A stretch of DNA of 64,000 nt. Origin: Aquibium microcysteis (GTDB taxonomy: Bacteria; Pseudomonadota; Alphaproteobacteria; Rhizobiales; Rhizobiaceae). The DNA is taken from assembly GCF_014495845.1 (NCBI RefSeq), contig NZ_CP061080.1:4888001-4952000 (forward strand), written 5' to 3'. Positions 24,065 through 50,418 of the stretch are shown here, piece after piece. The notes below the pieces were generated by a model. That model saw only the letters and a program-made list of their open reading frames with translations. It did not search any database and was not told where the DNA came from. Position 1 is the stretch's first letter, and each line of letters opens with the position of its first letter. A program made the translations under genes and the position numbers.

Positions 24065-24376
24065 ATGGCCGAGACAAGGGTACTGACCGATCACCAGGAG
24101 ATCCGCGAATGGGCGGCCGCACGCATGGGCTCGCCGGCGATCCGTCCGGCGGCGCCGTCGATCGGCAACAACGACCCCGTGCTGATGATCGTCTTCGACC
24201 AGCAGTCCTACGAGGATCAGGACCAGGGTGCAGACCGGCCGACGGACCTCGGTCGGCCGGAGATCGTCGAATGGGAGGAGTGGTTTGGGCTTTTCGACGA
24301 GCGCCAGCTCGGTCTCGTCGTGTCGCGGGAGATCGCAGGCCTGCGCGAGAGCTTCCACCAGCTCATCGCACGCTGA
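24065..24376 (+). CDS. hypothetical protein of the DHxEIRxWA family (103 aa)
   Basis: A soluble 103-residue protein with LTDHQEIREWAAARMGSPA, then MIVFDQQ and EEWFGLFDERQLGLVV. This layout (D-H-x-E-I-R-x-W-A near the start, then a strand and W/F-FDE-x-x-L) resembles a widespread uncharacterised bacterial family that I know only as hypothetical, often near glycogen or stress genes. AAGGAG lies upstream of the ATG. It follows the DUF2934 gene by 42 bp on the same strand. Confidence 0.65.
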   Translation: MAETRVLTDHQEIREWAAARMGSPAIRPAAPSIGNNDPVLMIVFDQQSYEDQDQGADRPTDLGRPEIVEWEEWFGLFDERQLGLVVSREIAGLRESFHQLIAR

Positions 24377-24529: not shown

Positions 24530-25078
24530 TCAGCCCATCTTCCCGGAAGAGAACATGGATGCCACGGGATGCACCTGTGCGCGCTCCACCGTCGAGCGGC
24601 TGGATGTTTCCCCGAGCTCTTCGAGAAGGCGCAGGCGCGCGCGGTTCAGCCTGCTCTTGATGGTACCCATCGCGCAGCCGCAGATGTCGGCTGCCTCGTC
24701 ATAGCTCATGCCGAGCACGCCGATGAGCACCAGCACCTCTCGCTGCTGGTCCGACAGACGCGACAGCGCCATCGCGATTTCATGTCGCCGCGCCGACCAT
24801 TCCTGCGTGGCGTCGATGGCGGGTCTGGCGGCGGCATCGTCGGCGGCACCGGGAGCCTCCCGGTTCGCGAGTCGGATCCGCGTGTAGAATGTGTTGCGCA
24901 TGATCGTGAACAGCCACGACTTCATGCTCGTGCCTTCCGCGAACTGGTGAATTTTGGCCAATGCCTTCGTGAGCGTTTCCTGCACGAGGTCGTCCGCATC
25001 GCTGGGATCGCGGTAGAAGGTTCGGGCAAAGGCGCGCAGGGCGGGGATCAGACTGACGATCTCGTTGTCCGGTGACAT
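24530..25078 (-). CDS. ECF sigma factor, EcfG-like (general stress response)
   Basis: A 182-residue group 4 sigma factor. Region 2 spans about residues 11-75 (IPALRAFARTFYRDPSDADD, LVQETLTKAL, MKSWLFTIMRNTFY) and binds the -10 element and core. Region 4 spans about 110-165 (LSDQQREVLVLIGVLGMSYD and CGCAMGTIKSRLNRARLRLL) and reads the -35 element. The region 4 sequence resembles the EcfG/ECF15 group that directs the alphaproteobacterial general stress response, fitting the many GGAAC-type promoters nearby. No nepR, phyR or anti-sigma gene is adjacent, so it may be a secondary paralogue. The ATG at 25078 is preferred; the frame to 25210 lacks sigma similarity. Confidence 0.85.
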   Translation of the reverse strand: MSPDNEIVSLIPALRAFARTFYRDPSDADDLVQETLTKALAKIHQFAEGTSMKSWLFTIMRNTFYTRIRLANREAPGAADDAAARPAIDATQEWSARRHEIAMALSRLSDQQREVLVLIGVLGMSYDEAADICGCAMGTIKSRLNRARLRLLEELGETSSRSTVERAQVHPVASMFSSGKMG

Positions 25079-26002: not shown

Positions 26003-26029
26003 GGAACGCTCGTGCCGCCGCGACGTTCC
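26003..26029. promoter_or_regulatory. perfect back-to-back EcfG-type promoters (GGAAC-N16-CGTT on both strands)
   Basis: Plus strand: GGAAC 26003-26007, 16 nt, CGTT 26024-26027. Minus strand: GGAAC 26029-26025, 16 nt, CGTT 26008-26005. Both are full consensus matches. The plus side faces the truncated ku copy at 26066, the minus side the membrane protein gene at 25884. Confidence 0.7.
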
Positions 26030-49779: not shown

Positions 49780-49804
49780 GGAACTTCCGTCCGGCGGGGC
49801 CATT
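49780..49804 (+). promoter_or_regulatory. possible EcfG-type promoter, GGAAC-N16-CATT
   Basis: GGAAC (49780-49784), 16 nt, CATT (49801-49804). The -10 box has one mismatch and ends only 8 nt before the ATG at 49813, so a transcript from it would be leaderless or nearly so. No Shine-Dalgarno is visible before that ATG. Confidence 0.3.
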
Positions 49805-49812
49805 GACTGTCC

Positions 49813-50418
49813 ATGGATGACAAGCTTTCCACCCTTGCGGGCATGCGGATCCTCATCGTGGAGGATGAATTCTTGCTGGCGGACGATCTCGCACAATTCT
49901 TCGCGAGCGTGGGCGCGACGGTGCTCGGCCCCGCGCCCGGCGTGGCCGCAGCGCGGGCGCATCTCGACCAGGCGGACGCCGCCGTCCTCGACATCAACCT
50001 GAAGGACGGTACCGTCTTCCCGATCGCCGACGAACTCTTCCTGCGCCGCGTGCCCTTCGTCTTCTTCAGCGGGATGGATGCCGCGTCGGTGCCCGAACGT
50101 TTCCGCTTCGTCGGCAGTCTTCCGAAACCCGTCAGCTGGCACAGCGTCGTCGACGTGCTGGTCAACGAACTGGACGGCAGGGCACGGGATCCGTTTTCGG
50201 TTTCGCGGCAGGACATGATCGTCGTTCTGCCGAAGTTGCGGCTCTCGGCGAGGCTGATGCTGGGCGACGCCCTGGCCGCCGACCGCCTGGTCGAGAAGAC
50301 GCTCGAGAGGGCGGTCGGGGAATTTCGCACCCGTCCGCACGACATCCCTACCTCGAAGTGGCTGACTCACCTCATGGAGACCACACTTGCCGACAGTGGT
50401 CGCAACCTGATGAACTGA
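49813..50418 (+). CDS. receiver-domain protein with sigma region 2-like C-terminus
   Basis: This 201-residue protein has a complete receiver domain (about residues 11-118): acidic pair in ILIVEDEF (E17, D18), phosphoacceptor D60 in VLDINLKDG, FFSG and K105 in LPKPVSW. The C-terminal part is not a usual output domain. Residues 139-192 align without gaps to residues 11-64 of the ECF sigma factor at 24530-25078: LPKLRLSARLMLGDALAADR with IPALRAFARTFYRDPSDADD, LVEKTLERAV with LVQETLTKAL, SKWLTHLMETTL with KSWLFTIMRNTF, about 17 of 54 identical. PhyR, the stress anti-anti-sigma factor, has the reverse order (sigma-like then receiver). A role in sigma control is inference. Confidence 0.75.
   Translation: MDDKLSTLAGMRILIVEDEFLLADDLAQFFASVGATVLGPAPGVAAARAHLDQADAAVLDINLKDGTVFPIADELFLRRVPFVFFSGMDAASVPERFRFVGSLPKPVSWHSVVDVLVNELDGRARDPFSVSRQDMIVVLPKLRLSARLMLGDALAADRLVEKTLERAVGEFRTRPHDIPTSKWLTHLMETTLADSGRNLMN

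Follow-up and report, generated by a model that had tools for sequence, protein, structure and literature searches.

PhyR, a response regulator, carries a sigma-like domain that has degenerated in the regions serving the promoter and the core RNA polymerase, and it titrates NepR, as an excerpt of PMC8103513 describes; the same source presents the pair SigO/RsoA, in which a sigma2-only protein works with a separate sigma4 protein. The FATGUY regulators work with kinases of the HWE/HisKA2 type, according to an excerpt of PMC5964349. The sigma factors of this response pose a problem of their own. Extra copies of EcfG were known in 2013 from about half of the completed alphaproteobacterial genomes, and their occurrence "has not satisfactorily been explained" in the words of one passage of PMC3892343. 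Roles have since been described in single species, such as mild amplification in Caulobacter (excerpt of PMC4814048) and that of the main regulator in Sphingopyxis (excerpt of PMC7083833). The copies probably arose by independent duplications (excerpt of PMC4814048), for which reason "EcfG2" is used here only for a clade of the sigma tree described below.

The window, the whole stretch of 64,000 nucleotides of the Aquibium microcysteis genome that was analysed, encodes a protein that would join the sigma-factor-mimicking response regulators as a new layout, judging from its sequence. The name RS2 is used here for this open reading frame and for its family. Among the titles and abstract openings listed from the open-licence literature, none describes a receiver-first regulator with a sigma2 tail. 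Databases already carry the annotation PF22029 on many RS2 proteins, the window's own precomputed annotation among them, under names such as "response regulator" or "hypothetical protein". The features concerned are as follows.

49813..50418, forward strand: RS2 gene, 201 aa, ATG start; receiver and degenerate sigma region 2
49780..49804, forward strand: site resembling an EcfG-type promoter, GGAAC-N16-CATT, differing at one base from GGAAC-N16-CGTT
49843..50166, forward strand: receiver domain, residues 11-118, FATGUY-like (PFVFFSG), from the SdrG match and conserved residues
50167..50211, forward strand: linker of varying length and sequence, residues 119-133
50212..50388, forward strand: sigma region 2-like domain, residues 134-192, from PF22029, the PDB search with a tail profile, hhalign and alignment columns
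24530..25078, reverse strand: non-canonical EcfG-type sigma ("EcfG2 clade"), 182 aa, probable genetic partner of RS2, from identity, PDB match, tree and linkage

Receiver and sigma region 2-like tail

The RS2 family numbers 236 proteins at E<=0.001, the window's protein included, and the closest group among the matches listed is 68-88% identical to it. RS2 carries E17, D18, E19, D60, S86 and K105. Among 120 sequences (the window's RS2 and 119 homologues from the matches listed), E17 and D18 are present in 119/119 rows that have a letter at these positions and E19 in 118/119, D60 in 119/120, and K105 as well as S or T at position 86 in 120/120. Residues 11-117 align to SdrG (PDB 5ieb, E 3e-13), and the Pfam model Response_reg, run on RS2 alone, gives a weak and partial match (E 0.008) under its cut-off. 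The almost invariant residues and the SdrG alignment bear out the initial annotation, which had placed a complete receiver at residues 11-118 on the strength of E17, D18, D60 and K105. Given that all six positions are almost invariant, with S or T at 86, the RS2 receiver should accept phosphate. A family motif follows the form PFVFF-S/T-G/A, with P81 and F84 in 120/120 sequences, F82 in 119 and F85 in 115/120; the corresponding FATGUY motif has A at the place of F85. Residues 119-132, in the linker, show column gaps and low information in the family alignment.

The tail is a genuine homologue of ECF sigma region 2, as judged by several sequence comparisons. Against the sigma factor encoded at 24530-25078 it has exactly 17 identities over 54 ungapped positions (residues 139-192), the figure that had earlier been reached by eye, and none of 5000 shuffled tails attained 17, the maximum being 15. 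PF22029 (PhyR_sigma2) matches the window's RS2 alone at residues 139-185 with E 1.9e-5 and 25.1 bits, the cut-off being 27, and scores 27.1 bits on it in the genome search. In the wider family this model finds 75/76 members at E<=0.01 (best 1.6e-7) and, at 0.01, six of eight further RS2 proteins, most of them outside the 76-member set; some of these six matches span only the first 35-40 residues, and the RS2 proteins of L137 and L043 gave no PF22029 match at 0.01. Sigma-factor models of NCBIfam match up to 37/76 members (PRK12540, best 3.6e-9). A tail-only profile, built from 20 tails and run against the PDB with matches taken up to E 0.1, returned six sequences, five of them sigma-factor entries (1h3l, 5uxx, 2o7g, 6jcy and 5zx2; E 2.3e-5 to 0.004) and one a PhyR-type response regulator (9cb6, E 0.019). 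Chance similarity was rejected on the shuffles together with the consistency of these profile matches.

Which sigma factor the tail resembles most is a separate matter. With group profiles from which rows with at least 10 gaps were left out, hhalign of the tails gave E 2.8e-15 for the EcfG2 clade, 3.5e-14 for other ECFs, 2.3e-12 for canonical EcfG and 2.1e-7 for PhyR. The mean score of the tails was 29.2 bits with the mixed other ECFs and 28.2 with the EcfG2 clade, and the best-scoring group for the 76 tails was other ECFs in 48, the EcfG2 clade in 27 and canonical EcfG in 1. Since other ECFs score as well as EcfG2, sequence does not fix which sigma RS2 mimics. Pfam and NCBIfam profile scans of the protein gave no match to sigma4 or region 4, and the order proposed at the outset, receiver first and only region 2 after it, agrees with a receiver at 11-118, a tail at 134-192 and an end at residue 201.

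What the tail has kept and what it has replaced can be read from an alignment of 76 RS2 tails with 23 EcfG2-clade sigmas, 23 canonical EcfGs, 32 PhyRs and 38 other ECFs, which is gap-free over residues 131-199 in four named examples. The 76 rows are those left of the 120 listed sequences (plus P0023) after redundancy was reduced at 75% identity; residue statistics use this set and not the 23 named loci, because the latter were fetched by the peptide pattern ADRLVEx[TA]L[EKQ], a selection that by itself makes these residues conserved among them. Between 93 and 100% of tails retain P140, L142, R143, A146, D157, L159, V160, A167, W183 and L184, the figure for P140, L142, R143, D157, L159 and W183 being 99-100%, and L142, R143, A146, D157, L159, A167 and W183 are invariant in the alignment. 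The DDLVQE stretch of sigma factors, presumed here to be the portion of region 2.2 that binds the clamp, has become DRLVE plus a variable residue, with R at position 158 in 93% of tails, E at 161 in 96% and mostly R, L or K at 162. Further along, E stands at position 181 in 61% of tails (K or R in 91-100% of EcfGs), mostly N, T or S at 185 (F in EcfG), E in 53% and D in 8% at 189, where 17% still have R, and D or E in 53% at 190 (N in EcfG). D158 and Q161 are presumed polymerase-clamp contacts, and 181, 185, 189 and 190 are presumed to lie within the part that contacts the -10 element; so assigned, the clamp and -10 residues of region 2 are not conserved in RS2 tails. PhyR is also altered at 158, 161, 162 and 189, mostly to residues other than those of RS2. 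The simplest reading would be that the tail is a sigma2 fold no longer able to serve as a sigma factor, and RS2 probably cannot act as one because the residues for polymerase and promoter have been replaced.

Distribution and genomic surroundings

When 297 genomes of the order were searched, the matches listed included 12 genomes scoring at least 150 bits with an alignment that reaches into the tail, and G031 has a further match of 93 bits that runs through a stop codon and reaches position 178. A class-wide draw of 387 genomes, with up to 15 candidates scored in each, produced tail-model scores above 60 bits, a line set by the author, only in the window's genome and in G308; most of the weaker class-wide tail matches fall in frames about as long as an ECF gene. 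G308, which falls outside the window's order, has three RS2-like tails (L111, L112 and L113), one of them flanked by an EcfG-type sigma on one side and a CheB-CheR-like kinase on the other, in the gene order EcfG-type sigma, RS2, a kinase starting like the CheB-CheR ones, and a receiver. Named carriers include Mesorhizobium, Aquibium, Shinella, Martelella, Methylobrevis and members of Paracoccaceae and Roseobacteraceae, and these families presumably belong to two orders.

A frequent companion of RS2 is a non-canonical EcfG-type sigma. That of the window is 50% identical to the NepR-linked EcfG of the same genome, and its best PDB match is 5uxx (E 6.5e-36), which we take to be a NepR complex. 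Such a sigma occurs in 29/33 RS2 genomes and in 28/33 shares a contig with RS2 at a distance of up to 30 kb (27/32 without the window's own pair, which prompted the search), a limit chosen after the distances had been seen and a count taken over related genomes; the 29th genome has its EcfG2-type sigma on another contig than RS2, and none was found in four of the 33, two of these being MAGs. G064, which also has RS2, was omitted from the count, as its place equals that of G352. Spacing is below 2 kb in five of the 33 genomes and below 10 kb in ten. Canonical EcfG, by comparison, lies within 30 kb of RS2 in 0/32 genomes, although in ten of the linkage genomes it was presumed from identity (46-48%), and nine EcfG2-type sigmas of those ten are absent from the tree. 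In that tree (n=84, nine loci dropped as duplicates), 19 linked sigmas fall within one clade of 24 rows (support 98/87), and 22/23 NepR-linked sigmas sit apart from it (95/82), the canonical set having been defined by a loose NepR search such that some rows labelled "other" may be canonical. Beyond these 19, the clade contains the sigma located on a different contig from RS2, three extra copies (two from Shinella and one from Carideicomes) and a sequence of G324. The linked sigmas do not form an exact clade, with three label changes in the tree and 0% of bootstrap trees with one.

Distances between RS2 and the EcfG2-type gene range from 0.2 to 30 kb between genera, and the genes therefore appear to have been reshuffled and yet to have stayed near each other. 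The linkage could in part reflect a common region of stress genes and not a direct pairing, in keeping with the many EcfG-type motifs of the window given below. A small protein of about 90-103 aa adjoins the EcfG2-type gene in the window (24065-24376), and small proteins that look similar by eye lie near RS2 in two relatives (L037:8179-8451 and L039:14196-14468).

For the other neighbours, open reading frames that reached 60 aa and showed codon bias were clustered across 36 loci, and the clusters were named by eye. Within the best 25 clusters, the most widespread were receivers (16 genera), kinases (12 genera) and EcfG-type sigmas (7 genera, 9/36 loci), followed by a family of about 177 aa (6 genera), several in at most five genera and numerous shadow ORFs. 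Among these clusters none could be recognised as a recurrent anti-sigma gene, though one of NepR size could have escaped the clustering. In 10/23 named loci RS2 has a CheB-CheR-HWE kinase no more than 1 kb away, the one in L119 looking broken, and in loci outside the named set Pfam confirms CheB, CheR, PAS and HWE domains in three and PAS-HWE in a fourth. CheB-CheR-PAS-HWE kinases of 1030-1070 aa are transcribed divergently from RS2 at L037:9470-12610, L038:9180-12272 and L039:7917-11129; to our knowledge, such a fusion is an unusual type of sensor for the general stress pathway. At L119:7180-12233 of Mesorhizobium neociceri, RS2 looks shortened (140 aa) and the neighbouring kinase matches only in pieces, as if decaying. 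In the window, inspection by eye found no kinase beside RS2, and the neighbouring genes look like tamA/tamB and dnaX.

GGAAC-N16-CGTT appears as an EcfG promoter consensus in an excerpt of PMC7083833. The exact motif lies within 300 bp upstream of 19/36 RS2 genes, or 18/35 without a duplicate, as L040 and L115 appear from equal length and place to be the same contig (L122 and L131 are one genome); it is absent upstream of 17/36, the window's gene among them. A looser pattern (GGAAC or GGAAT, N15-18) is found for 20/36, where mononucleotide shuffling of the upstream regions yields 0.26 on average and 3 at most, and GGAAC-N16/17-CGTT precedes 12/483 control ORFs of the same loci. When 13 loci were re-examined with up to one mismatch allowed, 7 had a match and 6 had none. 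The site in the window lies 33 bp before the ATG, with an identical site and distance in the Aquibium relatives L122 and L123, so close that a transcript from it would be nearly leaderless. A crude test found the motif before 3/18 EcfG2-type genes. Given that an EcfG-type motif precedes about half of the RS2 genes examined, this pattern suggests that RS2 is a feedback element of the stress response. The window as a whole (1-64000) holds 13 matches to GGAAC-N15-18-CGTT, two of which are one overlapping palindrome (26003-26029), where shuffles lead one to expect 1.9 and 0/100 reach 13; the region may thus be rich in general-stress genes.

Proposed role and rival explanations

In light of these features, RS2 is read here, with a little more confidence than doubt, as a sigma2 mimic that is gated by phosphorylation and acts in the general stress response of alphaproteobacteria. 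HWE-family kinases would phosphorylate its FATGUY-like receiver, and the receiver would control the C-terminal sigma region 2 with its replaced polymerase and promoter residues. Once phosphorylated, RS2 would take up a protein to which an EcfG-type sigma2 is otherwise bound, most probably an anti-sigma factor, whether NepR or a different one, and would thereby tune the non-canonical EcfG-type sigma encoded nearby. Made under an EcfG-type promoter, of which the motif is seen and the expression presumed, RS2 would itself form part of a feedback. The initial annotation had likewise proposed a sigma mimic or anti-sigma decoy, and this part finds support, in that the pattern of lost residues fits and the genomic context points to the general stress response; "PhyR domains in reverse order", taken as an origin, does not.

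As partner of such a mimic NepR suggests itself first, since it scores over the cut-off in 21/21 named RS2 genomes, in all 21 of which PF22029 also has matches of PhyR strength (at least 84 bits). PhyR and EcfG, however, grip NepR by sigma2 and sigma4 jointly, and RS2 has no sigma4. NepR may also be the wrong partner because non-canonical EcfG did not bind NepR in two species, Caulobacter and Sphingomonas, according to an excerpt of PMC4814048. Another anti-sigma factor, or direct contact between RS2 and the EcfG2-type sigma, may apply instead. Besides its one clear NepR, the window's genome has a weak NepR-like ORF of 63 aa (E 0.08; L049:1441-1632), near 4874900 of G000:C1, about 13 kb before the window and about 38 kb from the EcfG2-type gene; weak second NepR matches in five Mesorhizobium genomes are on contigs other than that of RS2. 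That RS2 embodies a second, independently evolved partner switch, in which a receiver-sigma2 protein, often under an EcfG promoter, exerts phosphorylation-dependent control over the non-canonical EcfG clade by way of a sigma2 mimic without sigma4, is a joint claim to be held tentatively, with doubt somewhat outweighing belief.

The close linkage to the EcfG2-type sigma would also suit a direct antagonist, an anti-sigma factor switched by phosphorylation that docks on region 4 of that sigma or on the clamp; the lack of a recurring anti-sigma recognised nearby (small genes could escape) points the same way, and negative feedback fits the EcfG promoter motif. Such a role is nevertheless unlikely: the presumed clamp contacts are altered in nearly all members (D158 to R, Q161 to E), which makes competition for polymerase improbable, docking on sigma4 finds no support in the sequence, and four RS2 genomes have no EcfG2-type sigma. 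Alternatively, RS2 might be a phosphate hub or sink like SdrG and MrrA, in which the sigma2 remnant sets only stability, localisation or choice of kinase. SdrG is indeed the closest solved receiver, and an HWE kinase and a single-domain receiver often lie near RS2, but the tail, with its seven invariant residues, is conserved to much the same degree as the receiver and has been retained across several families, presumably of two orders, so that this reading appears quite unlikely. A working sigma factor, whole or split, was rejected on the replaced polymerase and promoter positions. The split form, with RS2 supplying sigma2 to a separate sigma4 as RsoA does with SigO, has a precedent in that very pair (excerpt of PMC8103513); given that the positions needed by a working sigma2 are replaced, and that no free sigma4 gene was noticed by eye among the listed neighbour clusters, it is scarcely credible.

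Whether RS2 is simply a PhyR with its domains rearranged, as "PhyR domains in reverse order" might suggest, bears on origin as well as role. Both proteins have the same two kinds of domain, and PF22029, the Pfam model that fits the tail best, takes its name from PhyR; PRK09191, the NCBIfam model of PhyR, matches 76/76 members at E<=0.001. On the window's RS2, however, that model reaches 40 bits against a cut-off of 240, and the receiver is nearer SdrG than PhyR (53.3 versus about 23 bits for the window's RS2, 83 versus 45 for the family profile). In a receiver tree built without the window's RS2 and with 53 other receivers randomly thinned to 34, 32/33 RS2 receivers group together (97/64, the second support value being weak), apart from a group of 18 PhyR receivers (100/100), though the tree is poorly resolved, with many forks open. 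The tail, moreover, is nearer ECF sigmas than PhyR and lacks a sigma4 match. The reversed order is thus not supported as an account of origin, and a rearranged PhyR is very improbable. The receiver tree and the tail result argue instead for an independent fusion, in which an SdrG-like receiver was joined, probably once, to an ECF sigma2.

RS2 among known systems

RS2 is a linked candidate regulator for the EcfG2 clade, and control of that clade therefore becomes testable gene by gene. If the reading is true, response regulators would seem to have acquired sigma-factor mimicry on at least two occasions, each time with a different receiver.

Set beside the described systems, RS2 shares something with each and coincides with none. 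Like PhyR, it is a response regulator with a sigma-like domain whose polymerase and promoter positions have degenerated; PhyR, however, is laid out as sigma2-sigma4-receiver, whereas RS2 is receiver-sigma2 with no sigma4 match, its receiver nearer SdrG and its sigma2 nearer ECF sigmas. The EcfG (ECF15) sigmas, to whose region 2 the RS2 tail aligns without gaps, have regions 2 and 4, whereas RS2 is without region 4 and has replaced the polymerase and -10 positions. RsoA, like the RS2 tail, consists of region 2 only, but it works in transcription, whereas the RS2 tail has lost the positions needed and is fused to a receiver. Finally, among the FATGUY single-domain regulators SdrG, MrrA and Sma0114, SdrG offers the closest receiver in the PDB, and the RS2 motif has F where FATGUY has A; these regulators are a receiver only, whereas RS2 adds a conserved C-terminal domain.
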